Positions 13,569 through 50,389 of a stretch of 64,000 nucleotides of DNA are shown here, one piece after another. Both the position numbers and the translations under genes were made by a program. The stretch is from Nakamurella lactea DSM 19367 (lineage in GTDB: Bacteria > Actinomycetota > Actinomycetes > Mycobacteriales > Nakamurellaceae): contig NZ_AUFT01000007.1 of NCBI RefSeq assembly GCF_000426645.1, positions 310,001 to 374,000 on the forward strand. Direction: 5' to 3'. The stretch's first letter is position 1, and each line of letters opens with the position of its first letter. Under the pieces are notes generated by a model. It saw only the letters and a list, made by a program, of their open reading frames with translations, was not told where the DNA came from and did not search any database.

Positions 13569-14849
13569 TCAGATTCCGAGTTGTCGCATCCCGGTGGCCA
13601 GTTCCTCACGCCACCAGGCGTAGTCGTGACCGCCCCGGAATTCGGTGTAGGACACCGCGGCTCCGGCAGCGCGGGCTGCATCGCGGAACTGCCGCGCCTG
13701 CGTCGTCATTTCGGCCTCGTCGGTACCGACCTGGACAGCCAACCGCGGCCGGTGACCAAGAGTCCGTCCCGCCAGACTCCTGGTGAGGTGCCCCGGCGCG
13801 GTGGCGCCGGGCGCCGAGCTGACATCGCGATCGAACCAGAACGACCCGGACTGGACGATGGCCGAAGTCGCCAGATCGGGTCTGTCGATGACGAGCCCGG
13901 CGGCTGCGAGTCCGCCGAAGGACTGCCCGGCGATCGTGGTCCGGTCCGGGTCGACGGTCACCAACCCGGTCCGCCGCACGGCGGCGAGCAGGTCGGTGAT
14001 GATCCGTGCACAACGGTCGGGGATGGGCAGTTCTGCGGCTCGTCGCTGCAGATCGACGGAGTCCATCAGGACCAGGGTGGGGCGCCGTCGTCCGGTCCGG
14101 AGCGCCGACAGGTTCCATGGACGCCAGGCCTCGCCGTCCAGCAGAATCAGCAGCGGTGCGCCGGGATCGGCGCCCGTCAGCAGCGTTGCCCGCCTGCTGC
14201 GGCCGTCCGAGTGCTCGACGAGCAGCTCGCGTCCGGCCGGGCCGCGGGGGTCGACGACTCCGTCGACGGGCTCGAAGTGTTGGGCCGTCGGGTGTCTCGG
14301 CGTGCCCGGTCCCCGGAACACCGATGCGGGTCCGGTGTGTGGGCGAGTCAGCAGCGCCGGGTTGCGCGGATCGGGTCGGCCGTCCTGCCGCACCCGAACC
14401 CAGCCCGGACGGTCCGCGCCGACTTGGAGCGGGAAGTGGTCGCGATACACCAACTGGTAGCTGTAGCGCCCGTCGGCGGGGAGCAGATAGCTGACCTGTC
14501 GCACCGGGCCACCGCAGATCGGTTGCAGTAGTGCAGGTTCGATGTTTGCCCGGTGGTTGTCGGTCAGGCTGGTCAGACAGACCATCACCTCGCGGTCGGT
14601 GTCCACCCTGGCCAGGAACGAGACCTCGACCAGGTCGACACCGTCGACCGCCACCTGCTTGCCGATCAACGGCGTCCTGGCCTGTGCCGTCCAGAACCGG
14701 TCGGCAGCCGGCTGTGGCCGGGCAGCGGACCCCAGCGCGTCGATCCACCCCGGCCGGATCCGGATCGGTGCGCCGTCGGCCGCCACCGGCGACGGCCGGA
14801 GCTCGATATCCGCCGGTGGGGTGAACGGATCGACCGGGTTCAGCTCCAT
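13569..14849 (-). CDS. fes: Enterochelin-esterase-like hydrolase (Fes/IroD type)
   Basis: The 426-residue protein has a Fes-type N-terminal beta domain (residues about 50-165, with DRFWTAQARTPLIG and YSYQLVYRD), then an esterase domain with nucleophile GQSFGG (Ser310) and a C-terminal GGHDYAWWREEL that supplies the His. Without a signal peptide it would act in the cytoplasm on imported ferric catecholate-type siderophores, cutting the ester backbone to release iron. It ends the minus operon of two permeases and an ATPase, overlapping the ATPase gene by 10 bases. No siderophore biosynthesis gene is visible, so use of foreign siderophores is plausible. Confidence 0.87.
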   Translation of the reverse strand: MELNPVDPFTPPADIELRPSPVAADGAPIRIRPGWIDALGSAARPQPAADRFWTAQARTPLIGKQVAVDGVDLVEVSFLARVDTDREVMVCLTSLTDNHRANIEPALLQPICGGPVRQVSYLLPADGRYSYQLVYRDHFPLQVGADRPGWVRVRQDGRPDPRNPALLTRPHTGPASVFRGPGTPRHPTAQHFEPVDGVVDPRGPAGRELLVEHSDGRSRRATLLTGADPGAPLLILLDGEAWRPWNLSALRTGRRRPTLVLMDSVDLQRRAAELPIPDRCARIITDLLAAVRRTGLVTVDPDRTTIAGQSFGGLAAAGLVIDRPDLATSAIVQSGSFWFDRDVSSAPGATAPGHLTRSLAGRTLGHRPRLAVQVGTDEAEMTTQARQFRDAARAAGAAVSYTEFRGGHDYAWWREELATGMRQLGI

Positions 14850-15706
14850 GTCGCCGATCGATCGCGAACGTCCAGCGGTCCACGGCCGTCACCGGCGGGC
14901 GCGGCGCCGCCGATTCCGGTGCGGCGCACCGGTATTACCGTCGGCAGTCCGTCGAACGGGTCGTCGAACAGGTGTGCCCGCAGTCCGAATACCTCCAGGA
15001 GCAACTCTTCGGACAGCACCTCGGCCGGCGGTCCCTGGGCGACGATGCTGCCCGCCTTCATCACTACCAGGTCGTCGCTGTAGCGGGCGGCCAGCCCGAG
15101 GTCGTGCAGCACCACAACGATGGTCCGGCCGGTGACGTCCCGGAGCGTCGTCACCAGCTCGAGGACGTCGACCGCATGTGCCATGTCCAGGTGCGTCGTC
15201 GGCTCGTCCAGCAACAACAACTCCGTCTGCTGCGCCAAGGACATCGCGATCCAGGCCCGCTGGCGCTGGCCACCGGACAGTCGATCCACCGCCGTGTCTG
15301 CCAGCTCCGCAACCTGGGTGTCCCGCATGGCATCGGCGGTGATCCGTTCGTCCTGCTCCGACCACTGTCGGTACCAGGGCTGGTGCGGCTGCCGGCCACG
15401 CCGGACCAGCTCGGCCACCGTCATCCCGTCCGGCGCCACCGGGAGCTGGGGCAGGACGGCCAAAGATCGGGCGATCTCCCTGGTGCGCAACTGTTCCAAC
15501 GGACTGCCGGACAGCAGCACGCTGCCTGCGGTGGGCCGCAGCAGTCGGGACAGGACCTTGAGCAGGGTCGATTTCCCGCAGCCATTCGGGCCGATGATGG
15601 TGGTGATCTTGCCGCCACCCACCCGCAGGTCAACGCCCTTGAGGACGTCGCCGTGGCCGTAACCGGCCCGAATGTCGATGGCTTGCAGGGGAGGGGTTTC
15701 AGCCAC
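14840..15706 (-). CDS. Ferric-siderophore ABC transporter ATPase (FecE/FepC type)
   Basis: The 288-residue protein has Walker A GPNGCGKST (near residue 39), the Q-loop in VLPQLPVAPDGMTV, the signature LSGGQRQRAWIAM, Walker B LLLLDEPTTHLD and the H-loop His in VVVLHDLGLAARYS. It powers the two FecCD permeases encoded just upstream and overlaps the nearer one by 8 bases. A roughly 30-residue tail beyond the usual end (GIGGAAPAGDGRG) is low in complexity. Confidence 0.95.
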   Translation of the reverse strand: MAETPPLQAIDIRAGYGHGDVLKGVDLRVGGGKITTIIGPNGCGKSTLLKVLSRLLRPTAGSVLLSGSPLEQLRTREIARSLAVLPQLPVAPDGMTVAELVRRGRQPHQPWYRQWSEQDERITADAMRDTQVAELADTAVDRLSGGQRQRAWIAMSLAQQTELLLLDEPTTHLDMAHAVDVLELVTTLRDVTGRTIVVVLHDLGLAARYSDDLVVMKAGSIVAQGPPAEVLSEELLLEVFGLRAHLFDDPFDGLPTVIPVRRTGIGGAAPAGDGRGPLDVRDRSATWS

Positions 15707-16766
15707 TGGTCTTCCTGACGTAGGAGCGCATGAGGAACAACAGGTACGGGGCGCCGATCAACGGGGTGAGCACGCCGACCGGGAGCGTCCCCGGTAACCG
15801 GTCGGCCACCTGGGCGGCGATCATCATCACGCCCGCGCCGGCCAGGCCGCCGACCAACGGCGGCGGACCGGCAGTACGGAACAGTCGCATGGCGATCTGC
15901 GGGGCCACGAATGCGACGAACGCGATCGGTCCGGCCACCGCCGTCGACGCGCTGGTGAGGATCACGGCGACCGCGAGGGCGACCAACTCGACCCGGCCCG
16001 GCACGGTGCCGACGGTGGCGGCGACGTCCCGGCCAAGTCGCAGGGCCCCGACGTCGCGGCCCAGCCGGATGCAGACGAACAGGGCCAACGCACTGATGCC
16101 CGCCAGCAGCCAGAGATCGCCGATCTTCACTCCGTTCACCGATCCGGAGAGCCATCGCACGGCCACCTGCGCGTTGAGCAGATCGGTCCTGGTCAGCATC
16201 CAGGCTGTGCCGGCCAGTGCCAGCGCGTTCACCGCCAGACCGACGAGAACTACTCGCACACCGTCGAATCCGGTCCGCCAGGACAGCGCGAGGATGATGC
16301 CTGCGGTCAGTAGGCCGCCGACGATGGCGGCCGGCGTCAGCAGCGAGGACGCCGGGTTGTCGCCCACCAACCCGGCCACCGCCGGGGTGGTGATCAGCAG
16401 GACGGCGAAGGCGCCGGCCCCCGAGGTCACGCCCAGGATGTCCGGGCTGGCGATCGGGTTGCGGGTGATCGACTGCGTCAGCCCGCCCGCACAGCCGAGC
16501 GCGAAACCGACCAGCAGCGCGGCCAGTGCCGGTGCGAGTCGGTTGTCGATGACGACGAGCCGCTCGACCCGGGTTCCGCCACCGGACAACACGGCCACCA
16601 CCCGGTCGACCGGCATCGCCAGGGTTCCGGTGAACACCGCCAACGCCAGCAACCCGAGCAGCACGAGCACGGCCGTCAGCGCGCCGATGACCAGCCGGCG
16701 GCGCACCCGCAGCCCGATCGGACCGACCCGGAGCTGCCAGGAGCGGGGAGGGGTCGAGGCGGTCAC
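15699..16766 (-). CDS. FecCD-family siderophore ABC permease, second of pair
   Basis: This 355-residue polytopic protein shows the FecCD hallmarks: ALLVGFALGCAGGLTQSITRNPIASPDILGVTSGA split over two helices (residues about 85-125), SGSVNGVKIGDLW, and the C-terminal coupling region VAPQIAMRLF and GAPYLLFLMRS. It forms the membrane heterodimer with the 16763-17800 product and overlaps that gene as ATGA. Confidence 0.95.
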   Translation of the reverse strand: MTASTPPRSWQLRVGPIGLRVRRRLVIGALTAVLVLLGLLALAVFTGTLAMPVDRVVAVLSGGGTRVERLVVIDNRLAPALAALLVGFALGCAGGLTQSITRNPIASPDILGVTSGAGAFAVLLITTPAVAGLVGDNPASSLLTPAAIVGGLLTAGIILALSWRTGFDGVRVVLVGLAVNALALAGTAWMLTRTDLLNAQVAVRWLSGSVNGVKIGDLWLLAGISALALFVCIRLGRDVGALRLGRDVAATVGTVPGRVELVALAVAVILTSASTAVAGPIAFVAFVAPQIAMRLFRTAGPPPLVGGLAGAGVMMIAAQVADRLPGTLPVGVLTPLIGAPYLLFLMRSYVRKTSG

Positions 16767-17800
16767 AGGGCGACCAGCCGACGGCGTCGGGTGATGGCGA
16801 GTAGAACCGGTGCGCCGATCACCGCCAGGACGATTCCGACCTGCAGTTCACCGTTGTCGACGGTGATCCGGCCGACGGTGTCGGCCGTCAGCAGCAGTAC
16901 CGCTCCGGTCAGTCCGGCGAACGGCACGATGCGTCGGTAGTCGGATCCGCCGATCGCCCTGGCGACGTGCGGTGCCACCAGGCCCAGGAACGAGATCGGC
17001 CCGCAGATCGCGGTGGCCGCCCCGGCGAGCAGGGTGATCGAGACGATGCTCACCATCCGGCTGGCCGCCACCCTGGTGCCCAAGGACGTGGCAACCTGTT
17101 CGCCCAGGCCGAGTGCGTTCAACGAAATGCTGTTGTACAGCGCCAACAACAGTCCGACGACGAGCAGCGGAACCAGCAGTCCGACCAGGTCGTAGTTGCG
17201 TTGAGCCAGCGTTCCGACGTTCCAGAACCGCACCGCGTCCAACGCGCTCGCATCCAGCAACACCAGGGCGGTGGTCAATGCGGCCAACAGCGCCGCCAGC
17301 GTCGTGCCGACAACGGCGAGCATCATCAGCGAACTGCCGCTGATGTCCCGCAGGCCGAAGGCGAACACGATGACCGCAGCCGCCCCGGCCCCGACCAGCG
17401 CGGCGACCACCAATCCACCAGACGACACCCCGCCGAACAGCGACACCGACAGGGCAACGCCGAAACTGGCGCCGGCGTTCACCCCGAACAGCCCGGGGTC
17501 GGCGAGTGGATTGCGGGTGTGGCCCTGCATCAGCGCACCGGCCATCCCCAGCGCGACACCGACCAGCAGGCCGAGCAGGGTTCTGGGCAGTCGCTGCGAG
17601 GTGATGACGGTGGCATCGTCGCTGTCCGCGCCGGTGAACAGGGCGGACAGCACCTCGGACGGCGCGATGTTCCGGCTGCCGACAGCCAGACTCAACAGCA
17701 CCACGACGAGCAGGACGACGACCAGGACGAAACCCAGCACCAGGTAGCGTGTGACACCTCCGGAGCGTGACCGGGGTGTGGGAGAGAGCGACACCGTCAT
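16763..17800 (-). CDS. FecCD-family siderophore ABC permease, first of pair
   Basis: This 345-residue permease has LLVGVALGMAGALMQGHTRN, DPGLFGVNAGASFGV, GPISFLGLVAPHVARAIGG and a C-terminal GAPVLLAITRRRR. It is the first gene of the minus iron-uptake operon. Its ATG at 17800 overlaps the last base pairs of the iron box, and the GGTGAGG inside that box is the only ribosome-binding-like sequence. Repressor binding would therefore cover the translation start as well as the promoter. A later start is possible but would shorten the first cytoplasmic segment. Confidence 0.94.
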   Translation of the reverse strand: MTVSLSPTPRSRSGGVTRYLVLGFVLVVVLLVVVLLSLAVGSRNIAPSEVLSALFTGADSDDATVITSQRLPRTLLGLLVGVALGMAGALMQGHTRNPLADPGLFGVNAGASFGVALSVSLFGGVSSGGLVVAALVGAGAAAVIVFAFGLRDISGSSLMMLAVVGTTLAALLAALTTALVLLDASALDAVRFWNVGTLAQRNYDLVGLLVPLLVVGLLLALYNSISLNALGLGEQVATSLGTRVAASRMVSIVSITLLAGAATAICGPISFLGLVAPHVARAIGGSDYRRIVPFAGLTGAVLLLTADTVGRITVDNGELQVGIVLAVIGAPVLLAITRRRRLVAL

Positions 17801-17817
17801 AGGTTAGCCTCACCTAA
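17799..17817. promoter_or_regulatory. IdeR/DtxR-type iron box between divergent siderophore genes
   Basis: The 19-base site reads ATAGGTTAGCCTCACCTAA. It matches the consensus TTAGGTTAGCCTAACCTAA at 17 of 19 positions. It sits between the permease operon (minus) and the binding lipoprotein (plus), so iron-loaded IdeR/DtxR should repress both directions. Confidence 0.85.
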
Positions 17818-17844
17818 ACATCCAACGTGACCCGGAGTTGTGAC

Positions 17845-19002
17845 ATGAAATTTGTGAGTCGAGCGGCGGCCGTAGTGACCGCCGCGGTCCTCCTTGCTGC
17901 CTCGGCGGCCTGCGGTTCGTCGGACGACCCGGCGGACGGCAACGACATCGCCGCCGTTGCGACGACCGCAGGCCCGGCCACGTCCGGGTCCGAATCGGCG
18001 CCGGCGTCGTCGGCGGGTTCGTCGGTGGCGGGTTCGTCGGCCGCTACCGGTTCGTCGGCGGCGGGTTCGTCGGCCGGGTCCGCAGCAGCCGCGCCCGGGT
18101 CGAGTGGCCCTGGCCCGGCAACGGTGACCACGGCATCCGACGGAACCCATACCGTCACCGGCACTTTCACCGGTGAGGTGACCGGCGTTCCCGCCAAGCC
18201 GCAACGGGTGGTCGCACTGTGGCGCACCGGTTCCGAGCTGGCCGAGCTCGGCGTGGTGCCGGTCGGGTCGCTGGAGGGCGAATTCCTGGAGGGTGAGCTC
18301 GGCGCCGACCTGTACAGGTCCGTCGCCGAGGTGCCCACTGTCGGCAGCTTCGAGGGAGTGGACATCGAGAAGGTGATCGCCGCCAAGCCCGACCTGATCA
18401 TCGGCATGGACAACGGTGGGCTGAGCATCGACTACGCGACCCTCGCCGAGATCGCCCCGACGGTGATTCTCAAGATCGCCGAGCCGACCGATGTTTGGCG
18501 GAACTACCCGGTGGTTGCCGAGATCGTCGATAAGACAAGTGATTTCACCACCAAGAACGCCGACCTGGATGCCAAGCTCGGGGCGATCGCCGACGAGTAC
18601 GGCGACAAGCTCAAGGACAAGTCGGTGACGGCGTTCGGCGTCTCGGCGGACGAGATCTGGATCAGTACCAGCAAATCACTGCTCTACCAGCGTCTGGCGC
18701 AGGCGGGCTTCACCTACAACCCGGTCTACACCGACGATCCCGAACGGTACGTGACCGTCCTCACCGCCGAGAACATCCCGAACCTGGCGGACCAAGCCGC
18801 GATCTTCTACCAGACCAACCTCGATGGCAGCCCCATCGCCGGCAACGACATCGTGCAGAAACAGGAGTCATACCAACGACTTCCCGCGGTCAAGGCCGGC
18901 CGGGAGTATCCGGTGACCAGCGGCGTCATTTACACCTTCGTCGGCGCCGACGAGCAGGTCGAGGACATCAGGGCTGCGGCCAAGGCGCTCGCCGAAAGCT
19001 GA
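17845..19002 (+). CDS. Iron-siderophore ABC transporter substrate-binding lipoprotein
   Basis: From the ATG at 17845 the protein has 385 residues with a lipoprotein signal (MKFVSRAAAVVTAAVLLAAS, then Cys in SAACGSS). A Ser/Ala/Gly-rich tether of about 70 residues with repeated GSSAAGSS-like units follows, then a FepB/FhuD-type domain (KPQRVVALWRTGSELAELGV, PTVGSFEGVDIEKVIAAKPDLIIG). An upstream in-frame GTG at 17827 is rejected because it would place Arg and Asp ahead of the signal peptide and crowd the iron box. It captures the ferric siderophore outside the cell for the divergent permease/ATPase operon. Confidence 0.92.
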   Translation: MKFVSRAAAVVTAAVLLAASAACGSSDDPADGNDIAAVATTAGPATSGSESAPASSAGSSVAGSSAATGSSAAGSSAGSAAAAPGSSGPGPATVTTASDGTHTVTGTFTGEVTGVPAKPQRVVALWRTGSELAELGVVPVGSLEGEFLEGELGADLYRSVAEVPTVGSFEGVDIEKVIAAKPDLIIGMDNGGLSIDYATLAEIAPTVILKIAEPTDVWRNYPVVAEIVDKTSDFTTKNADLDAKLGAIADEYGDKLKDKSVTAFGVSADEIWISTSKSLLYQRLAQAGFTYNPVYTDDPERYVTVLTAENIPNLADQAAIFYQTNLDGSPIAGNDIVQKQESYQRLPAVKAGREYPVTSGVIYTFVGADEQVEDIRAAAKALAES

Positions 19003-19046: not shown

Positions 19047-20849
19047 GTGGCCGGCCGCCGTAACAAGAGCTACCCCATCGTGATCCGCGACCTCGAGGTG
19101 ATCGATGCCTACGACGTCACCCCACTGATGCGTCGTGTCGTGGTCGGAGGTGATCAGCTCGGTCACTTCGTCAACAACGGCCATCGGGTTGAGCCGTTCC
19201 GCACCGAGAACGCCGACGACCACGTGAAGCTGGTGGTGCTCGGGCCCGATGACTCGATCGAGGTCCCGGCTCAGTTGGACGGGCACCTCGACTGGTCGCG
19301 GGAGGCGCTGGACCGGGCCAGGGACTACACCCCCCGACGGTTCGATCCGGTCGGCCACCGGCTGGAGCTCGACTTCGTCCGGCACGCCGGCGGAGTCGCC
19401 TCCGAGTGGGCCGTGCGGGCACAGCCCGGCGACCGTGCGCTGGTCGCGGGTCCGCGCGGCACCACCGTGCTGCCCGACGACATCGATTGGTTCTTCCTGG
19501 TCGGCGACGAGACCGCGCTGCCGGCCATTGCCCGGCGGATCGAGGAACTGCCGGCCGGCACCCCGGTGACGGCGGTGGTCAGCGTACCGAGCGCTGCCGA
19601 GGAGCAAACCTTCGAGCACAGCACGGATCTGACGATCACCTGGGTCCATCGGGACGTCGCCGGACCGAACGCGCCGATGGGCGCCGGCTTGATGGAAGCG
19701 GTGACAGCCGCGCGCTGGCGGGACGGCACCGTCTACGCCTGGGCCGCCGGCGAGGCCGGAATGCTGCGCCCGCTGCGCCGCTGGCTCAAGGGCGACAGAG
19801 CGGTTCCGCCGACCCACATCGACATCGCGGGCTACTGGCGCTCCGGCCAGTCCCAGTCCGACGCCGCCCACCTGCGGCAGAGGGTGCAGGCGCTGACCTC
19901 GCTGGCGGTTCCGTACGCCGTGCGGGCCGCGGTGACACTCGAGCTGGCCGAGCACGTGGCCGACGGTCGGACCACGATCCCCACGCTCGCCGCCGCGGCC
20001 GGCGCACACCCCGTTGGGGTGCGCAAACTGATCCGGATGCTCACCTTCCACCAGCTCTTCGAGCTGGACGGCGACTCCGTCCGGTTGGGAGCGAGCGGAT
20101 CCGTGCTGCTGGACGAGGCGACCCACCAGGCGCTGGATCGGCGCAGCGGCATGGCCCGGTTGGACGACAGCTGGCCAGGATTGCTGCACACGATCCGGAC
20201 CGGCCGGTCCGGGTACGAAGAGGCGATCGGCGAAAGCTTCTGGGCGACGATGGCCGTCGACCGGCAATTGGGCGAATCCTTCGACGCATCGCTCAGCGAC
20301 TGGTCGGCGGTCTGGAGCCGGGGAGTCGCCGGCTCATTGGAGCTGACGGACGAGACCGTCGTCGACGTCGGCGGTGGGACCGGGACCCTCATCGGTGAGG
20401 TGCTGCAGACCTACCCGCAGACCAGCGGCACCCTGGTAGAGCTGCCGTCCGTGGCCGAACGGGCCCGGGCCAATCTGGCTGCGCGCGGCCTGTCCGATCG
20501 GGTCGGGATTCTGCAGCAGAGCTTCTTCGAGCCGCTGCCCGCCGGCGCCGATGTCTATCTGCTCGCCCAGGTGCTGCACGACTGGCCGGACCCGGAGGCC
20601 GTGAAGATCCTGCGGCGGGTGGCGGATGCGGCCGGTGATCGGCGAATCGCCCTGGTCGAACGTCTCGCCGCCGACGAAGACCACGACCACGACGTGATGT
20701 TCGACCTGCAGATGTACGCGACGTTCGGGTCCGGCGAGCGCAGCCTCGACGAATTCGCCGCGCTGGGCGATCGGGCGGGTCTGACGGTGACCGGCACCAC
20801 GCCGATCGGCGAGGACCTGCATCTCATCGAGCTGCGGGCCACGAGTTGA
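19047..20849 (+). CDS. Fusion protein: siderophore-interacting ferric reductase (SIP) plus O-methyltransferase
   Basis: The 600-residue protein joins two families. Residues 1 to about 267 are a SIP-type FAD reductase: the FAD motif DYTPRRFDP (93-101), LVAGPRGTTVLP, FFLVGDETALPAI, and the typical terminal HIDIAGYWRSG (257-267). Residues about 280-600 are a family-2 O-methyltransferase: a winged-helix dimerisation domain, the SAM motif VVDVGGGTG (438-446), and AQVLHDWPDPEAVKILRRV. The first half would release iron from a siderophore by reduction; the second would methylate a hydroxyl or phenol. No stop or frameshift separates them. It follows the binding-protein gene by 44 bases and its 3' end overlaps the convergent GH38-like gene by 26 bases. 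Confidence 0.9.
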   Translation: MAGRRNKSYPIVIRDLEVIDAYDVTPLMRRVVVGGDQLGHFVNNGHRVEPFRTENADDHVKLVVLGPDDSIEVPAQLDGHLDWSREALDRARDYTPRRFDPVGHRLELDFVRHAGGVASEWAVRAQPGDRALVAGPRGTTVLPDDIDWFFLVGDETALPAIARRIEELPAGTPVTAVVSVPSAAEEQTFEHSTDLTITWVHRDVAGPNAPMGAGLMEAVTAARWRDGTVYAWAAGEAGMLRPLRRWLKGDRAVPPTHIDIAGYWRSGQSQSDAAHLRQRVQALTSLAVPYAVRAAVTLELAEHVADGRTTIPTLAAAAGAHPVGVRKLIRMLTFHQLFELDGDSVRLGASGSVLLDEATHQALDRRSGMARLDDSWPGLLHTIRTGRSGYEEAIGESFWATMAVDRQLGESFDASLSDWSAVWSRGVAGSLELTDETVVDVGGGTGTLIGEVLQTYPQTSGTLVELPSVAERARANLAARGLSDRVGILQQSFFEPLPAGADVYLLAQVLHDWPDPEAVKILRRVADAAGDRRIALVERLAADEDHDHDVMFDLQMYATFGSGERSLDEFAALGDRAGLTVTGTTPIGEDLHLIELRATS

Positions 20850-23610
20850 CCGGGAGACTGGGTGGTGGGTCAACCCTGATGGTCTGGATGTGCCAGGCGG
20901 GCAGCCGGAGCCGGACGCTCGACGGCCCGATCCGTCCCAGGTCGCCGGCCGACTGATCCTTGAGGTCGACACCTGCAACGGACCCGGTGAGCAGCGGGCC
21001 GGTCAGCGTCGTCACTGCCGGCGTCGGCCGGAGATTCGCGATCCGGATCAGGTACGAGCCCCGGTTCGGGTACAGCGCGGACAGCACTACCGGATCGCCA
21101 TCGGCGGCCAGCAGGCCCGGAAGGTCCACTGCTGCTGCAGTAGTCAGGTACTGCCGACCCCGCCAGTCGGCGTCGCCGAGCTCCGGCGCTCCTGCCTCGA
21201 TCCAGGATGACTCGCCCGGGCGCAGGGTGAACCGCCACAACTGCGGCCCGTAGTTGTGCCAGACGAAATGCTCGTCGCCGCAGGATGTCGGGGTCCGCAG
21301 CAGTACGGCCTCCAGCACGCCGTCGGGTGGCCGGTCGAGTCCCGTCCGGTCAACGCGTGACGGGTCGACGCCCGGTTGATCGATGCCCGGTCGATCGCCA
21401 CCCGGTTCATCGATGCTGTGGCGCAGACCCAGGAGATCGCCGGTGATCGTCAGGCCGCCGTTCGCTCCGGCGACGTGCGCCCAGTGCTGCGCCTCCCGGT
21501 AGCGCGGATAGTCGGCCGGATCGATCTCATCGGTGTGTGAGGGCCCGGCACCGGCCGGCACGTCCGACCAGTTGGTGGCGTGAAACGGCGTCCCGTAACT
21601 GATCTGCTCTGGGCCGCTCGGCCGGGCAAGGCCGAGTCGGACCTGCCGGTCGGGCGTTCCCGGCCAGCGCACGCCGACCTCCAGGTCGAGCCTCGGACCG
21701 TCGGTCCAGACCGTCAGCAGTTGGGTCCAACGAACATCCAGCAAGTCCTGGACGATTCTGATCTGGGTGGCCAGCGGACCGTGCGAAACCACCCCGACCT
21801 CCGCCGTGGCCGCCCGGGTCGGGGCCGATTCGTCGGTACGAAGGGTCACGTCGTTGCCGGTCTCCGGGACCGATCGCAACACCCCGAGCGACCCGGCATG
21901 GTCGGTGCCCCGGTCGCGGTCCACCAGGCTCACGATCCGTCCGTCGGACCGGTCGACCGCGACCAGCAGATGCGCTGTGGTCACGGTGATCACGTCGCCG
22001 TCCACCACGTGCGCCGGCGGGCCGGCGGCTACCAGGTCGGCGGCCCGCAGCAGCCTGCCGCCCACCGCCGGGACCGGCGGTGTGGCCAGCGCCAGCACCC
22101 CACCGCCGAGCGCATCGGCCAGTCGCTGGACCCCCAGCGGTCGTTCCGTGGACGACGGGTCGTCGTCCGCCAGCCAGCGGGTGAGCACCGCGCCCGCAGG
22201 GCTCGCCGGGTCGATCCGGTCGGTGCGGCTCCCGCTGCACAGGCCCGGGTTGAAGGCGACCAGTGTCTCGACCGGCCCGGCGCCGTTCGGTGATGCGGTG
22301 CCGTTGGATCGTGCCGTGTCGTTCGATGGTGCCGTGTCGTTCGATGGTGCCGTGTCGTTCGATGGTGCCGTGTCGTTCGATGGTGCCGTGTCGTTCGATG
22401 GTGCCGTGCCGATCGACTGCTCGATGAGCTGCCGGCTGTAGTCGATCACCCGATCCTGCCGGATCCGCTTGTGGTAGCTGCTGAGCGCACCCTCCTGCCC
22501 GCCGCCGTTGTGGTCCTGGGTGAACAGATGCATCCGCCACAGACCTTCGAATTCTGCGCCGGCCGGGATCGGGTCCTTGCGGGCGAAGAAGGCGTCCTCG
22601 TGGAAGCTGCCCTTCCACTCCCCGACCTCGGCCGGCCAGGGCGACCGGCCGGCGTGAACAGCCAGCACCGCAGCGGTTTCGGCCGTCAGCAGCAGCGACT
22701 CGGCGGCGCGGGCGCGGCGGAAGAAGTCCGCCGACTCGTCGGCCGCGACACCCCAGACGCTCGGGATGCCCTGTCGGGTTTCGGCCAGCGGCACCGGGTG
22801 ATCCCGGTAGGGAGCCAGGACGGCGGCCGGCGTCGAGTAGCCGAACTCGATCCCCGGGAGCTGCCGGCGGTAGGCCTCGATGAACTCCGCCAACGGCCGC
22901 CCGTAGCCGGCGCCGAAATCGTCGTGCGTTGTCAGGTCGCCGGCCGTGCCGGAGATCGGAACGGTGCCCAGCGGGAAGCGGTCGGCCACCTCGTCGAGGT
23001 TCAGTTGCCAGTCGCCCCACCGCGGCGTCTCGGCGGGCAGGTCGGCGACCTGCAGCGGAATGAAGTTGTAGTGGCCGGGCCAGCGCAGTACCAGCAGCTC
23101 GGATCCGTCGGGGCTGACGGACCGCCAGATCCTGCCCTCCGGAAAGATCTTCCGCGCGGTGGCATAGAAGTCGACACCGCACTGCCGGCAGAGCTGCGCG
23201 GTCTGCGGGTTGAGTCCGGGCAGATCCGGATGGATCGCGGTGTGCGGCAGGTAGTTCAGCCGTTCGCGCAGCAGATCCCGGCCGAGCTGCAGGTTGCGGA
23301 TGTGGGACTCACCCAGGACCAGGTTCTCCCAGACGTCGATGTACGCCGCCCCGATCTCCACCCGGCCCTGCGCCAACAGCCGGATCAGATCCCGCTCGTG
23401 CTCGGGATGGACCAGCAGAAAATGCTCGGCGAACACCGCGGTCTCGATGACGAAGGTTTCGTCGGGATGCGTCAGACACCGCTGGAGATAGCCGAGGATG
23501 ATGTCCGCGCCGCGGGCCAGGCAGGTCAGATAGCTGCCGAGCCAGTACAGATCCAGGTGCGAACCAGGGACGTAGACGATCCGGTCCGGCAGCGGAGCGC
23601 CGTCAGCCAT
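20824..23610 (-). CDS. GH38-like glycosidase (alpha-mannosidase superfamily), atypical active site
   Basis: At 928 residues this has the layout of a bacterial GH38 protein: an N-terminal barrel beginning IVYVPGSHLDLYWLG with the metal-binding HxD pair, a central helical domain with TQDHNGGGQEGALSSYHKR, and C-terminal beta domains. Where GH38 enzymes usually read D-x-N-L-P-S-G-E with the Asp nucleophile, this reads VWENLVLGESHIRNLQLG, so the nucleophile position looks altered. A (APSNDT)n repeat interrupts the middle. No signal peptide is present. It lies 3 bases after the sugar permease and is the last gene of the GntR/RraA/ABC operon, so it probably trims an imported glycoside. Confidence 0.75.
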   Translation of the reverse strand: MADGAPLPDRIVYVPGSHLDLYWLGSYLTCLARGADIILGYLQRCLTHPDETFVIETAVFAEHFLLVHPEHERDLIRLLAQGRVEIGAAYIDVWENLVLGESHIRNLQLGRDLLRERLNYLPHTAIHPDLPGLNPQTAQLCRQCGVDFYATARKIFPEGRIWRSVSPDGSELLVLRWPGHYNFIPLQVADLPAETPRWGDWQLNLDEVADRFPLGTVPISGTAGDLTTHDDFGAGYGRPLAEFIEAYRRQLPGIEFGYSTPAAVLAPYRDHPVPLAETRQGIPSVWGVAADESADFFRRARAAESLLLTAETAAVLAVHAGRSPWPAEVGEWKGSFHEDAFFARKDPIPAGAEFEGLWRMHLFTQDHNGGGQEGALSSYHKRIRQDRVIDYSRQLIEQSIGTAPSNDTAPSNDTAPSNDTAPSNDTAPSNDTARSNGTASPNGAGPVETLVAFNPGLCSGSRTDRIDPASPAGAVLTRWLADDDPSSTERPLGVQRLADALGGGVLALATPPVPAVGGRLLRAADLVAAGPPAHVVDGDVITVTTAHLLVAVDRSDGRIVSLVDRDRGTDHAGSLGVLRSVPETGNDVTLRTDESAPTRAATAEVGVVSHGPLATQIRIVQDLLDVRWTQLLTVWTDGPRLDLEVGVRWPGTPDRQVRLGLARPSGPEQISYGTPFHATNWSDVPAGAGPSHTDEIDPADYPRYREAQHWAHVAGANGGLTITGDLLGLRHSIDEPGGDRPGIDQPGVDPSRVDRTGLDRPPDGVLEAVLLRTPTSCGDEHFVWHNYGPQLWRFTLRPGESSWIEAGAPELGDADWRGRQYLTTAAAVDLPGLLAADGDPVVLSALYPNRGSYLIRIANLRPTPAVTTLTGPLLTGSVAGVDLKDQSAGDLGRIGPSSVRLRLPAWHIQTIRVDPPPSLPVNSWPAAR
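22311..22400 (-). repeat. 18-base minisatellite in the GH38-like gene, five perfect copies
   Basis: GTGCCGTGTCGTTCGATG repeats five times without a mismatch, with degenerate half-units on both sides. On the coding strand it encodes five APSNDT hexapeptides, a likely flexible linker. The period is a multiple of three, so copy-number change keeps the frame. Confidence 0.97.
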
Positions 23611-45220: not shown

Positions 45221-47701
45221 ATGGCGCAGCACCCGTTCAATTCTGCAGGGGCCATCGGGCCGAAGCGCACTCCCCCCACCTGGTCGGTACCCGACTTCGA
45301 CAAGCACCCGCCGTTCTCGTTCACCTACGGGGGCGTGGCGTCCAGCAAGCTGCTGCCGAAGTGGCGGCACCGGAGTTCGGGTGGTCGGTTCTCGGGCGGC
45401 CGAATCGAGCGACACACCTGGACCGACCCGGTCACCGGCCTGGCGGCAGTCCTGGACGCCAAGCGGTTCACCAGCTCCGGCGCCGTCAGCTGGATCGTGT
45501 ACTTCCGGAACACCTCGAAGATCGGCACTCGGCTCATCGGTGATGTGCTGGCACTGGACCTCTCGACCCAGCGACGGTCGACGGAGCAGCTGCTCATTCG
45601 CAGCAACAACGGTAGCGACGCGCGGGTCGTCGACTTCGCGCCCTTCGAGTTGGAGCTCACCGACGGGAAGTGCTGGCTGTTCTCCAACTCGGCCGGGCGG
45701 CCCAGCGACGGCATCGTCGCCGGCGAGAGCAGCCCGTGGCGCTACTTCAGCGGCGGTGACGCACCCGGGTACATCAACTCCGACCAGCATTCGACGGTGA
45801 TCGCCGGCGGCACCGCGACCCTGACCTTCACCGGCACCTCGATCACCTGGATCGGCGTGCGCAACATCGACTGTGGAATGGCCGACGTGTTCATCGACGG
45901 TGAGCAGGCCGCGGTGGTGGACCAGTACGGAACGTCCTGGCTCAAGCAGCAGGAACTGTTCACCAGGGCAGACCTGCCGGACGGCGAGCACACCATCATG
46001 ATCCAGTCCAGGGCGGACCGGAATCCGGCCGGTATCGGCAACAACGTCAACATCGACGCGTTCACCGTCGGCCGTCCTGGCGCCGAGGCCGAGGTGATCA
46101 ACGACGACGACGCGCGCATCGTCTACGGCATGCAGCCCGTCGGCTCGTCCAGCTGGGTCCGCAACGGTTGGCCGTACTTCAACTTCGATGCCGGTGGCGA
46201 GGGGCTGATCGCGGCCGTCGGTTGGCCAGGGCAGTGGGCGCTGCAGGCGGAGCGGTCGGGCACCGAGGTCCGGATCCGCGCCGGCATGGCCCAGGTGGAT
46301 CAGCTACAGGACGGCGACCGCATCCAGCAGGCCGAGCTGACCGAGCTGTGGCTGCAGCCGGGTGAGGAGATCCGCACCCCGCAGATCGTGCTGCTGCCAT
46401 GGAGCGGAGCCGACCATCACGACGGTCAGAATGCCTGGCGTGCCTGGTTTGTCGACCACCACATGCCGCGCACCGGTGGCGTCCCGGTGCCGCCGCTGTG
46501 CCCGACCCAGTCCAACGACTACTTCGACGGGCAGTGGGACACCGCAGCGGACGAGCTCACCTGGCTCAACGCCTACGGCGAGCACGGCGCCACCCCGGGG
46601 ACCGGCGGCGCCCACGACCATTGGTGGATCGATGCCGGTTGGTACGCGGTTCCCGAGGGCGCGTCCGAGGACTGGAACTGGCCGGGGACCTGGTATCCGG
46701 ACCCGAATCGCTACCCGGACGGGCTCAAGCCGATCCTGGACCGGGCGCACGAACTCGGTATGCGCAGCATCGTCTGGTTCGAACCGGAACGGGTCCGCAA
46801 GGGCACCTGGGTGCACCAGCATCATCCGGAGTGGTTGTTGCCGATCGAGGGCAACGACGACGTGCACCTGCTGGATTTCGGCAACGCCGAGGCGCAGCAG
46901 TGGATGACGCAGACCGTCGGCGACATGATCGAGCACGACGGCATCGACGTCTACCGGGAGGACTTCAACATCGGCCCGCTGCAGTACTGGCGCGAGAACG
47001 ACACGTTCGGTCGCCGCGGGATGGTGCAGATACGGTACGTGACAGGACATCTGGCCTACTGGCGAGCACTGCAGGAGCGAAAGCCGGGCCTGGTGATCGA
47101 CACCTGCGCCAGCGGCGGCAAGCGATTGGACATCGAGACGCTCGGACTTGCCGTCAATCTGCTGCGCAGCGATCTGGTGCGGCACGCCGTCGGGAACCAG
47201 TCGCACCTTCACGCACTGTCCAGCTGGGTGCCGCTGCACGGCGGCGTGGTCAGGGTGACCGGCAGCCCCACCGACCTGTACGACTCCCGCAGTGCCTACG
47301 GCCCGTCGCTGCACCACGCGTTGGACGTTCGTCAGGCCGATGCCCCCTGGGACACCCTCAATCAGACCGCCGCGGAATGGAAGGCGATCTCCGGGCACTT
47401 CTACGGCAACTTCTTCCCGCTGACGCCAGGCGGTTCGGGAGACGACATCTGGGTCGGCTGGCAGTTCGGTCAGCGGGATGCCTTCGCCGGTGTCGTGCAG
47501 GTCTTCCGCCGGGCGGACAGCCAGGAGTCGAGTGCCACGCTTCTACTGCGAGGGTTGACCGAGAAGCAGCGGTACGCCGTGACGGATCGCGACTCCGGTG
47601 ACACCCAGGTCCTGCTCGGTAGCGAGCTGATGAATGACGGGCTGAAGGTGTCGATCGACACGGCGCCGGCCGCTCGAATCCTGGAATACCAGCGGGCCTG
47701 A
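45221..47701 (+). CDS. GH36-like alpha-galactosidase homologue without export signal, with inserted beta-sandwich
   Basis: The 826-residue protein is a GH-D clan glycosidase: N-terminal supersandwich parts (residues about 30-175 and 290-420), barrel with DHWWIDAGWY (467-475), the probable nucleophile Asp581 in DVYREDFN, and probable acid/base Asp637 in DTCASGGKRLDIETL. Residues about 178-285 (ITWIGVRNIDCGMADVFIDG, ELFTRADLPDGEHTI) form a jelly-roll, carbohydrate-binding-like module inserted in the N-terminal domain. The YREDFN motif differs from the KWDMN of classical alpha-galactosidases, so specificity is open. No signal peptide. It is paralogous along its whole length to the next gene. Confidence 0.85.
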   Translation: MAQHPFNSAGAIGPKRTPPTWSVPDFDKHPPFSFTYGGVASSKLLPKWRHRSSGGRFSGGRIERHTWTDPVTGLAAVLDAKRFTSSGAVSWIVYFRNTSKIGTRLIGDVLALDLSTQRRSTEQLLIRSNNGSDARVVDFAPFELELTDGKCWLFSNSAGRPSDGIVAGESSPWRYFSGGDAPGYINSDQHSTVIAGGTATLTFTGTSITWIGVRNIDCGMADVFIDGEQAAVVDQYGTSWLKQQELFTRADLPDGEHTIMIQSRADRNPAGIGNNVNIDAFTVGRPGAEAEVINDDDARIVYGMQPVGSSSWVRNGWPYFNFDAGGEGLIAAVGWPGQWALQAERSGTEVRIRAGMAQVDQLQDGDRIQQAELTELWLQPGEEIRTPQIVLLPWSGADHHDGQNAWRAWFVDHHMPRTGGVPVPPLCPTQSNDYFDGQWDTAADELTWLNAYGEHGATPGTGGAHDHWWIDAGWYAVPEGASEDWNWPGTWYPDPNRYPDGLKPILDRAHELGMRSIVWFEPERVRKGTWVHQHHPEWLLPIEGNDDVHLLDFGNAEAQQWMTQTVGDMIEHDGIDVYREDFNIGPLQYWRENDTFGRRGMVQIRYVTGHLAYWRALQERKPGLVIDTCASGGKRLDIETLGLAVNLLRSDLVRHAVGNQSHLHALSSWVPLHGGVVRVTGSPTDLYDSRSAYGPSLHHALDVRQADAPWDTLNQTAAEWKAISGHFYGNFFPLTPGGSGDDIWVGWQFGQRDAFAGVVQVFRRADSQESSATLLLRGLTEKQRYAVTDRDSGDTQVLLGSELMNDGLKVSIDTAPAARILEYQRA

Positions 47702-47782
47702 GGACGCGCTCGACCAACCCATTGTCCACCACCAGGCGCCGGCCCGGGCGCGCTGGAATCCTAGCCAAGGAACGGTAATCGC

Positions 47783-50389
47783 ATGCCACAGCACCCGATC
47801 GAATCAGCGCCTGAGGATTCACCGAAGTCGGCGGTCAACCGGCGGAAGTTCCTGGAGTTCGCCGGTCTGGCCGCCGGGACGGCAGCGCTGCTGCCGTTGA
47901 CCGGACAGCAGGCGGCCGCCGCCACCGGCGGGAAGCCGGGAACGCCGGTCGCGGCGTCGGCCGGATGGTCGCTGCCGGACTTCGCCACCACACCGCCGTT
48001 CTCGTTCACCTACGGCGGTGTTCCGTCCCATGAGCTGTTGCCGCGGTGGCGCCGGTCCCGGTCGTCCCGCAACGTCGCCGGCGGCCGTCAGTCGACGGTC
48101 ACCTGGACCGATCCGGTGACCGGACTGAAGGTGGCGCTGGAGAGCGTGCAGTACAGCCGGACGAACGCCGTCTCCTGGCTGGTCAACTTCACCAACACTT
48201 CCACCATCGGCACCCGGCTGATCGAAAACGTTCTCGCACTGGATGTCTCGCTCAAGCCGCGATCGCTGGGGGAGTGGACCGTCCACACCAGCAGCGGCAG
48301 TGACGCCAAGGCACAGGACTTCAGCCCGTTCGACGTCCGCCTGCCCGCCGACAGCTTCCGGCTCTTCTCCACCGCGAACGGCCGCCCGTCGGACGGGGTG
48401 TACAGAGCCGCGGCCGGCAATCCGTGGGCCTACCTGACCGGCAGTGGCGCACCGGGATACATCAACTCCGACCAGCACTCCACCACGGCGGCCGGCGCGA
48501 CCGCGAGCCTGACCTTCGAGGGCACAGCGATCACCTGGATCGGCGTCCGGAACGTGGACTGCGGCAAGGCCGATGTGCTGATCGATGGCGAGCAGGTCGC
48601 CGTCGTCGATCAATACGCGACGTCCTGGCTCAAGCAGGTCGAGCTGTTCACCAAGACCGATCTCGCGGCCGGCACGCACACCATCGTGGTGCGATCCAGG
48701 TCCGACAAGAACCCGGCCGGCATTGGGGTGAACGTCAATGTGGACGCGTTCAAGATCGGCACCGGCGACGACGCCGAGGTGGTCAACGACAACGATCCCC
48801 GGATCACCTACGGCATGGACAGCTCGCAGGTCTCGACCTTCATCCGCAACGGCTGGCCCTACTTCAACTTCGACTGGGGTGGCCAGGGGATGATCGCCGC
48901 GATCGGCTGGCCGGGCCAATGGGCCCTGCAGAGCGAGCGGATCGGCACCGGCACCCTCCGGGTGAAAGCGGGGATGACGCAGCTGGACTCGGTCGCCGAC
49001 GGCAGCCGGATCGAGGCCGCCGAGCTCACCGCACTCTGGCTGGAACCGCGCGAGCAGATCCGCACGCCGCGGATCGTCGTGCTGCCCTGGCAGGGCCAGG
49101 ACTGGCATGCAGGGCAGAACGACTGGCGGCAGTGGTTCGTCGCGCACCAGCTACCGCACACCGACGGCGCCGTCGTCCAGCCACTGGCGCCGACCCAGTC
49201 GAACGACTACTTCCCGGAGCAGTGGGACACCTCCGCCGACCAGATCACCTGGCTCAACGCCTACGGCGAAAACCACGCCACGCCCGCGACCGGTGGCTCG
49301 CTCGATCACTGGTGGATCGATGCCGGCTGGGCCGCCGTTCCCGAGGGCGCCTCGCACAGCTGGAACTGGCCCGGCTCCTGGTTCCCGGATCCCGACCGGT
49401 ATCCGGACGGCCTGAAGCCGGCGCTGGACCGGGCACACGAACTGGGCATGCGGACCATTGTCTGGTTCGAACCCGAACGGGTACGCCAAGGTACCTGGCT
49501 GCACGTGAACCACCCCGAGTGGTTGTTGTCGATGCCCGGCAACTCCGACATCTTCCTGCTCGACTTCGGCAAGCCCGCGGTCCGTCAGTGGGCGACGAAG
49601 ACCATCGGCGACATGATCGTGCACGACGGCATCGACGTCTACCGCGAGGACTTCAACGTCGGTCCTCTCCCGTACTGGCGGGAGAACGACGCCTACGGCC
49701 GTCGCGGCATGCTGCAGATCCGATATGTGGAAGGGCATCTCGCCTTCTGGCAGGGGCTGCAGCAGCGCAAGAAGGGGCTGGTCATCGACACCTGTGCCAG
49801 CGGTGGGCGCCGGATGGATGTAGAGACCCTGGGGCTGGCGGTCAACCTACTCCGCAGCGACTACGTGCTCAACGCCATCGGCAATCAAACGCACATCCAT
49901 GGCGCCTCGAGTTGGGTGCCGTTGCACGGTGGGGCAGTACGGGTCACCGGCAGCCCGGATGATGTCTATAACGTGCGAAGCAACTACGGGCCGTCGTTGC
50001 ACAACGCCTTGGACGTCAACCAGCAAAATACACCGTGGGACACCCTCAAGGAGACGACGGCAGAGTGGAAGAAGCTGTCCACGCACCTGTACGGCGACTA
50101 CTTCCCGCTGACCGACGGCGGTCCCGCGTCGGATGTCTGGATCGCCTGGCAGTTCGGCGAGCGGGACGCCTCCGCCGGCTTCGTGCAGGTCTTCCGGCGC
50201 CCGGACAGCCCGGACAGCTCGACCACCATCAAGTTCCGCGGGCTGCAGCAGAACCGGCAGTACAAGGTGACGGACCGCGATTCCGGTGCCTCGCAGGAGA
50301 TTCCCGGCAGTGACCTGATGAACGCCGGTCTGCAGGTGTCCGTGGATGCGGCTCCGGCCGCCCGGATCCTGGAGTACCAACGGGTATGA
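47783..50389 (+). CDS. GH36-like alpha-galactosidase homologue, Tat-exported paralogue
   Basis: The 868-residue protein repeats the architecture of the preceding gene but begins with a twin-arginine signal (NRRKFLEFAGLAAGTAALLP, then cleavage near AAAATG). The barrel has LDHWWIDAGWA, DVYREDFNVG and DTCASGGRRMDVETL, and the inserted module has ITWIGVRNVDCGKADVLIDG. The first eight residues (MPQHPIES) resemble those of the paralogue (MAQHPFNS), so the Tat segment lies between shared ends. The upstream leader is also similar to that of the first gene, indicating a tandem duplication. Its stop overlaps the FAD oxidoreductase start as ATGA. Confidence 0.86.
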   Translation: MPQHPIESAPEDSPKSAVNRRKFLEFAGLAAGTAALLPLTGQQAAAATGGKPGTPVAASAGWSLPDFATTPPFSFTYGGVPSHELLPRWRRSRSSRNVAGGRQSTVTWTDPVTGLKVALESVQYSRTNAVSWLVNFTNTSTIGTRLIENVLALDVSLKPRSLGEWTVHTSSGSDAKAQDFSPFDVRLPADSFRLFSTANGRPSDGVYRAAAGNPWAYLTGSGAPGYINSDQHSTTAAGATASLTFEGTAITWIGVRNVDCGKADVLIDGEQVAVVDQYATSWLKQVELFTKTDLAAGTHTIVVRSRSDKNPAGIGVNVNVDAFKIGTGDDAEVVNDNDPRITYGMDSSQVSTFIRNGWPYFNFDWGGQGMIAAIGWPGQWALQSERIGTGTLRVKAGMTQLDSVADGSRIEAAELTALWLEPREQIRTPRIVVLPWQGQDWHAGQNDWRQWFVAHQLPHTDGAVVQPLAPTQSNDYFPEQWDTSADQITWLNAYGENHATPATGGSLDHWWIDAGWAAVPEGASHSWNWPGSWFPDPDRYPDGLKPALDRAHELGMRTIVWFEPERVRQGTWLHVNHPEWLLSMPGNSDIFLLDFGKPAVRQWATKTIGDMIVHDGIDVYREDFNVGPLPYWRENDAYGRRGMLQIRYVEGHLAFWQGLQQRKKGLVIDTCASGGRRMDVETLGLAVNLLRSDYVLNAIGNQTHIHGASSWVPLHGGAVRVTGSPDDVYNVRSNYGPSLHNALDVNQQNTPWDTLKETTAEWKKLSTHLYGDYFPLTDGGPASDVWIAWQFGERDASAGFVQVFRRPDSPDSSTTIKFRGLQQNRQYKVTDRDSGASQEIPGSDLMNAGLQVSVDAAPAARILEYQRV

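Follow-up and report, generated by a model that had tools for sequence, protein, structure and literature searches.

A SIP reductase fused to a family-2 O-methyltransferase in an iron-boxed siderophore-uptake locus of Nakamurella lactea, with methyltransferase residues missing from most of the related fusions found

Ferric-catecholate systems such as Fes/FepBDGC and BesA/FeuABC-YusV comprise a binding protein, permeases, an ATPase and an esterase. The siderophore-interacting (SIP) reductases YqjH, ViuB, SbSIP and the Thermobifida fusca siderophore utilisation protein 4yhb, which we take to be FscN, are single-domain proteins. In mycobacterial IrtA, a SIP domain is fused to an ABC transporter. 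The actinobacterial family-2 O-methyltransferases (OMTs) NcsB1 (3i53), MmcR (3gwz) and DnrK are separate proteins of antibiotic biosynthesis pathways. To our knowledge, what becomes of a siderophore once its iron has been removed is known in few cases. In Bacillus subtilis, cleavage by the BesA esterase leaves catechols from bacillibactin that are toxic and lead to lysis if they are not cleared by CatDE, a dioxygenase under Fur control (PMC6212828), which provides a precedent for the need of a catechol-removal step after siderophore hydrolysis. The kasichelin siderophore cluster contains a separate methyltransferase of unknown role, KasB, which its authors assign to the UbiG superfamily (PMC12305651).

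Here, we report the analysis of a gene of Nakamurella lactea DSM 19367, and of its relatives, in which a SIP reductase and an OMT are joined in one polypeptide. The gene lies in a 64-kb stretch of DNA, which we refer to as the window (Table 1). The original prediction, made from the letters of the window, described an uninterrupted frame of 600 residues that joins a complete reductase to a complete family-2 OMT. The frame opens at a GTG codon behind an AGGAG site, closes with TGA and has zero internal stops. In an hmmscan search against Pfam, FAD_binding_9 (80.6 bits; cut-off 23), SIP (127.4; 26.3), Dimerisation (26.8; 25.6) and Methyltransf_2 (107.4; 22.3) all exceeded their curated cut-offs, and the motifs GYWRSG and VVDVGGGTG, cited in the original prediction for the two halves, were located at residues 262-267 and 438-446, respectively. 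Among NCBIfam models, none matched the fusion protein above its cut-off, the two hits, BchU and FlxJ, falling far below.

Table 1. Features of the fusion gene and the adjoining iron-uptake locus, in window coordinates
Feature	Position	Strand	Details
Fes-type enterochelin esterase	13569..14849	-	PF11806 3e-12, PF00756 1.6e-10, over cut-off
FecE/FepC-type ATPase	14840..15706	-	NCBIfam FecE 3e-88, iron-enterobactin ATPase 3e-82, both below curated cut-offs
Second FecCD-type permease	15699..16766	-	PF01032
FecCD-type permease	16763..17800	-	PF01032
IdeR/DmdR-like iron box	17799..17817		17/19 against consensus, between divergent genes
Ferric-siderophore binding lipoprotein	17845..19002	+	Peripla_BP_2
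SIP-OMT fusion gene	19047..20849	+	600 aa
Reductase half	19098..19847	+	FAD_binding_9 (residues 18-139), SIP (147-267)
Linker	19848..19874	+	Residues about 268-276; model confidence <50 at 266-268
O-methyltransferase half	19875..20846	+	Dimerisation (277-344), Methyltransf_2 (376-578)

The locus is divergent around the iron box, with the binding protein and the fusion transcribed one way and two FecCD permeases, the ATPase and the Fes-type esterase the other. In this gene content and in the box it resembles Fes/FepBDGC and BesA/FeuABC-YusV, but the reductase is fused to an OMT and the esterase is divergent, its match to the NCBIfam enterochelin esterase model (7e-40) scoring 137 bits where the equivalog cut-off asks for 222. 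The open reading frame of the lipoprotein begins at 17827; the ATG at 17845, behind which lies a signal peptide whose end resembles a lipobox, appears to be the better-fitting start. Scored against what we take to be the IdeR/DmdR consensus, the box is the sole site of at least 14/19 within the window, and in 20 mononucleotide shuffles, scores of at least 14 and at least 15 turned up at 0.2 and 0.0 sites per 64 kb, respectively. A box of 16-18/19 occupies the matching place between the divergent promoters in all six orthologous loci described below (seven of seven with the window). Together with the ferric-siderophore uptake genes, these boxes support the predicted placement of the fusion in an iron-regulated siderophore locus, presumably under IdeR/DmdR control through the box at 17799.

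The N-terminal half of the fusion resembles the single-domain SIP reductases, 4yhb included, in its FAD and NAD(P)H motifs and in its siderophore-locus context, whereas the window protein continues past GYWR into a complete OMT. That OMT has in common with NcsB1, MmcR and DnrK the fold, the SAM motif, LHDW and the Glu; unlike them, it is fused to a reductase and sits in an iron-uptake locus. The likeness to IrtA lies in the joining of a SIP reductase to a siderophore-handling partner, a transporter in IrtA and a putative ligand-acting enzyme here. With CatDE, the fusion would share a purpose, the removal of toxic catechols under iron control, although CatDE is a dioxygenase, an unrelated protein that is not joined to a reductase. 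None of the literature matches listed, from a scope that most subscription journals fall outside, describes a SIP-OMT fusion, in agreement with the statement in the original prediction that no characterised example was known. The architecture is real and represents a domain combination from a known enzyme family that is undescribed within the literature searched.

We scanned 84,980 species, each represented by one genome, with short peptide patterns, a procedure that recovers close relatives only and so gives a lower bound. Full-length orthologues, 59-64% identical to the window protein over the whole length, were found in Streptomyces oceani, Streptomyces sp. AJS327, Streptomyces nanshensis, Actinomadura atramentaria, Actinomadura flavalba and Actinocatenispora comari. 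The presence of the full fusion in all six confirmed relatives excludes a frameshift or chance read-through at the junction and a sequencing or annotation artefact, and the linker aligns without gaps in all seven proteins. The joining of a SIP reductase and a family-2 OMT in one polypeptide is therefore confirmed. The host genome encodes further SIP-like and OMT-like stretches, so the fusion is not the sole copy of either domain.

Searches for this domain architecture, a check proposed with the original prediction, yielded 35 distinct fusions, 26 in a first count and nine more in a later one, which excludes a fusion unique to the host genome. Seven fusions form the clade of the window protein and 28 a sister clade. 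At E 1e-80, a profile of the seven-fusion alignment (A1) matched 11 of 397 genomes of the order, 2 of 396 of the phylum and 7 of 297 in the family of G552, and a broader profile (A3) matched 20 of 394 genomes of the class, six of the 20 by the SIP half only; the order, phylum and class counts include the host genome, and the draws overlap. Two fusions, in Tsukamurella and Pseudonocardia, are plasmid-borne. The fusion is old.

Among solved structures, the SIP half is closest to 4yhb, both by sequence (3e-47) and by comparison of its AlphaFold model (Z 30.2, rmsd 2.2 over 250 aligned residues). Alignments identify the reductase signatures K61, Y94-T95, G153-D154, E236 and GYWR at 262-265 in the window protein, K61 and R265 pairing with a lysine and an arginine of 4yhb. 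Y94-T95, G153-D154, E236 and G262-Y263-W264 are present in all 35 fusions. Within the sister clade, R265 is retained by 22 of the 28 members, and position 61 is lysine in 14, arginine in 10 and neither in four. A basic triad has been described for Shewanella SIPs (PMC11965169). Membership of the SIP family strongly suggests that this half of the fusion reduces Fe(III).

The OMT half of the window protein carries DVGGGTG (440-446), E465, LHDW (510-513) and E538. We take DxGGGxG to be the SAM motif, the acid at position 465 to be the residue that holds the SAM ribose, and H511 and E538 to be the catalytic His and Glu of family-2 OMTs. D440, G442, G444, E465 (as D or E), H511, D512 and E538 are kept in all seven members of the window's clade. 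In the sister clade, D440, H511 and D512 are found in none of the 28 members, and 25 also lack an acid at 465, the exceptions being L053, L154 and L155. Other positions persist (G444 in 24 of 28, E538 in 22, G446 in 18 and G442 in 14), and in L044, L045, L052, L053 and L154 a histidine lies one or two positions off column 511, so that there the loss of His rests on the alignment. Among 26 stand-alone OMTs, the catalytic His is kept in 18 and the Glu in 22; with eight of the 26 devoid of it, absence of this residue on its own is no rarity in the superfamily, and it is the joint loss that marks the sister clade.

On this residue evidence, the OMT halves of the sister clade are very probably catalytically dead. 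A family that consists throughout of methylating reductases is excluded, given that H511 and D440 are missing from every sister member. The original prediction had named inactivity of one domain in all homologues as grounds for abandoning the proposed coupling of reduction and methylation; such inactivity appears, from the sequences, to hold in the sister clade and not in the window's clade. The coupling itself accordingly fares unevenly: the signatures of both domains are conserved in all seven members of the window's clade, for which the mechanism originally suggested is possible, but 28 of the 35 fusions have lost both the acid of motif I and the catalytic His, a loss that the original prediction had not foreseen, so methylation is dispensable to the architecture and cannot account for the whole family. 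More surprising than this mechanism, and better supported, is the apparent disappearance of methyltransferase residues from the majority of the fusions recovered. A natural comparison thereby becomes available between a branch that has kept these residues and one that has lost them, the reductase being kept in both, and the scaffold with a seemingly dead OMT, taken across several actinobacterial families, would form a natural series for the study of pseudoenzyme evolution.

Several stand-alone actinobacterial OMT-like proteins close to the window's OMT, namely L012 and L010 (both ALTDW), L075 (ILPGW) and L087 (VLPGF), lack the catalytic His and keep the acid of the SAM motif, residues that suggest RdmB-like or other chemistry.

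For the window's clade we propose a two-headed cytoplasmic enzyme, induced by iron starvation, that would handle an imported ferric catecholate xenosiderophore by reduction of the iron and O-methylation of the freed catechol, and to this reading we assign a probability of roughly 0.4. At low iron, IdeR/DmdR would leave the box; the lipoprotein and the FecCD/FecE transporter would bring in an enterobactin- or bacillibactin-type ferric catecholate; and the Fes-type esterase would cleave its ester backbone. The SIP half would then reduce Fe(III) with NAD(P)H via FAD, and the OMT half would methylate the freed catechol with SAM as donor, such that the ligand could neither rebind iron nor undergo redox cycling. 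The OMT half may double as a dimerisation or ligand-binding module. We infer the order of these steps, the methylation and its target, the cargo and the regulation. O-methylation of the freed catechol, taken on its own, we regard as a tentative proposal, at somewhat below even odds, and the close sequence relatives of the OMT half, which include the non-methylating RdmB and TamK, speak against it; methylation has nonetheless probably been kept in the window's clade. Still more tentative is the wider picture in which a single protein strips a pirated catecholate siderophore of its iron and instantly caps the ligand by O-methylation, the dead-OMT scaffold serving elsewhere as a reductase platform.

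Because the reductase is covalently bound to the methyltransferase, ligand capping can be tested with one purified protein. Capping, if true, would destroy the chelator of another species and spare the cell catechol toxicity. Real methylation would constitute a form of xenosiderophore disposal with a bearing on microbial iron competition, and it may bear on the persistence of catechol-bearing compounds after import.

The nature of the cargo was approached through the siderophore-synthesis genes of the hosts. Searches of the N. lactea genome (98.27% complete) showed 0 NRPS condensation domains and 0 IucA/IucC synthetases, and no DhbA above the cut-off (best match 182 bits against 300). In control genomes, condensation domains were matched in Escherichia coli and B. 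subtilis, and of 14 controls two had IucA/IucC and two had DhbA over the cut-off. The host thus seems not to make such a siderophore and would have no reason to recycle or spare the ligand; the want of matches to these three families, together with the Fes gene, points to a foreign catecholate ester as the probable cargo. The host organism, in other words, probably takes up a foreign siderophore, and that this is a catecholate xenosiderophore can be held with moderate confidence. The adjoining Fes-type esterase, which the original prediction had not noted, makes likely the link to catechols drawn there.

Across the clade, the picture is less uniform. The binding-protein gene precedes the fusion in all seven loci, and FecC, FecD and FecE diverge from it in six, Actinocatenispora being the exception. 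A Fes gene lies beside the fusion in two of the seven, the window and Actinocatenispora, where it scores above the NCBIfam equivalog cut-off; in the other five relatives none was found in roughly 6 kb on each side of the fusion. PF11806 proteins occur in 9 of the 24 fusion-bearing genomes searched, including four of the seven of the window's clade, and were not found in the remaining three. With Fes beside the fusion in two of seven loci and PF11806 missing from three of seven genomes, a catecholate cargo is not established as clade-wide; the reading is strongest at the window locus and weaker elsewhere. All six relatives' genomes contain NRPS condensation domains and IucA/IucC, and DhbA exceeds the cut-off in two of the seven clade genomes, which makes the handling of an own siderophore conceivable in some hosts.

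Gene content places the sister clade, too, in siderophore handling. At 19 sister loci, mostly of 20 kb, similarity to our queries revealed a binding protein in 15, a permease or ATPase in 12, an enterochelin-esterase-like protein in six and NRPS genes in four, so the platform belongs to siderophore handling whether or not the methyltransferase residues are present. A recurrent sister operon is illustrated by L102 (7269-19551), where a divergent AraC-type regulator is followed by the fusion, a binding protein, FecC, FecD and FecE, and then by an enterochelin-esterase-like protein and a pair of ABC proteins whose domains are of exporter type; in L092, L098, L106, L107 and L108 this gene set is likewise present, in full or for the most part. 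On plasmid pLS2-1 of Pseudonocardia sp. HH130630-07 (L056, 11986-25815), a sister-type fusion heads a row of genes annotated as SidA-type monooxygenase, MbtH, aspartate decarboxylase and NRPS that resembles a siderophore cluster. The idea that OMT loss tracks a hydroxamate cargo fits this plasmid, with its hydroxylase and NRPS, but does not fit the six sister loci with esterase-like genes, and was abandoned.

The persistence of a seemingly dead domain in these loci raises the strongest alternative, that the OMT half serves as a module for structure or ligand binding, involved in dimerisation, siderophore docking or SAM sensing, and that in the window's clade, too, methylation is a side activity or has all but vanished. 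Beyond the residue losses given above, it is favoured by the integrity of the sister proteins: Dimerisation and Methyltransf_2 exceed their Pfam cut-offs in all six tested, and the predicted structure of a member from the host's own genus (G014; pLDDT 87.6, pTM 0.53) still matches DnrK (Z 32.5, rmsd 2.5 over 332 residues) and 4yhb (Z 32.2, rmsd 1.8 over 255). The window model (pLDDT 88.4, pTM 0.65) likewise has an uncertain domain arrangement, and at these pTM values the relative orientation of the two active sites is not usable. For the sister OMT halves, dN/dS falls at 0.12-0.41 in 10 of 11 pairs, in most cases close to the SIP-half value, and reaches 0.80 in L052/L053; members recur among the pairs, which makes the values non-independent, and the silent sites of L044/L045 are close to saturated. 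The sister OMT half thus appears to be maintained by purifying selection. Among members of the window's clade, the OMT half shows faster evolution than the reductase (dN/dS 0.31-0.54 against 0.19-0.35 in four pairs), which weighs against the two-headed enzyme proposed above.

Against a purely modular role stand the seven SAM and catalytic positions, conserved throughout the window's clade at 59-64% identity, and also the retention of E538 and G444 by most sister members, whose inactivity is deduced from residues. We consider such a role somewhat less likely for the window's clade than the proposed two-headed enzyme, and the most serious competitor to it. Across the fusions as a whole, the OMT half probably has some role besides methylation, such as dimerisation or ligand binding, and an additional role of this kind would explain why relatives retain the domain after catalysis has been lost.

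Phylogenetic analysis of the two halves bears on how often the fusion arose. In the OMT tree, the 35 fusions lie on one side of a branch that separates them from the 26 stand-alone OMTs (98/90), with support of 100/100 for the window's clade and 100/99 for the sister clade; the tree with 26 fusions gave 95/90 for all fusions, 100/100 for the window's clade and 97/99 for the sister clade. The stand-alone OMTs were picked by similarity to the window's OMT, which may bias these trees. The SIP half is less decisive. A 51-row SIP tree has weak deep nodes, splits the sister clade and places the stand-alone SIP L022 with L052/L053 (85/48). A 60-row tree, in which nine of 27 stand-alone SIPs were left out as long branches, fragments or duplicates, a choice that favours one clade, groups the fusions with seven solo SIPs of one genus (92/82) and sets the window's clade (100/99) apart from the rest; the omitted rows are L002, L003, L006, L007, L011, L022, L027, L033 and L035, of which L007 and L011 were already absent from the 51-row tree. 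Constraining the fusions together without the solo SIPs cost 7.4 log units and was not rejected (p 0.27). The seven solo proteins (L156-L162, genus g91) are close SIP relatives that stop at GYWRR, and no OMT-like frame was found in the 3-4 kb examined at these loci; their position beside the sister clade could mean that the OMT was lost or that they represent a deeper lineage without the fusion.

The simplest account would be a single fusion with a working OMT, kept in the window's branch, with catalysis lost in the sister branch. Two independent fusions of similar parents, one for each clade, would be compatible with the weak deep SIP nodes and with the stray position of L022, but the union of all fusions in the OMT tree and the separation, in both halves, of the window's clade from the remainder make such a double origin rather improbable.

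A role in biosynthesis, whereby the OMT would methylate a phenolic group of a host-made siderophore, could draw on the NRPS genes near L056, L093, L094 and L099, on the weaker NRPS matches and MbtH-like gene at L103, and on the DhbA of two clade genomes. The NRPS-adjoining sister members, however, lack H511 and D440, the N. lactea genome gave no match above the cut-off to the synthesis families searched, and a tailoring enzyme joined to an iron-release reductase would be unexpected; we regard this role as improbable, and disposal of a foreign ligand remains the preferred reading for the window's clade.

The similarity searches of the OMT half also touch on its chemistry, although rank among relatives, by sequence or by fold, does not alone decide it. 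By sequence, the half is closest to NcsB1 (3e-53) and MmcR (5e-51), far ahead of RdmB (2e-40), TamK (8e-40) and DnrK (2e-39). By fold, including Foldseek, it is closest to NcsB1 (Z 37.1, rmsd 2.2 over 319 residues, 39% identity) and DnrK; NcsB1, DnrK and MmcR score Z 36-37 and RdmB and TamK Z 33-35, a gap of 1 to 4 Z. RdmB, a hydroxylase, and TamK, a decarboxylase, slightly outrank DnrK by sequence, and a flavin half feeding electrons would suit a reaction that requires a reductant, yet a use of SAM of this sort, with no methyl transfer and an oxidative or decarboxylating attack on the dihydroxybenzoate of the siderophore, is very improbable in view of the better-matching methyltransferases by both measures and of the complete LHDW and E538 set in the window's clade.

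Downstream of the fusion, a GH38-type glycoside hydrolase gene (20824-23610) converges tail-to-tail with it and, when the longest open reading frames are taken, overlaps its last 26 bases. Further along the window, 45221-50389 on the forward strand holds two large melibiase-type (PF02065) genes side by side, which encode 826 and 868 aa and match the model weakly and in part.
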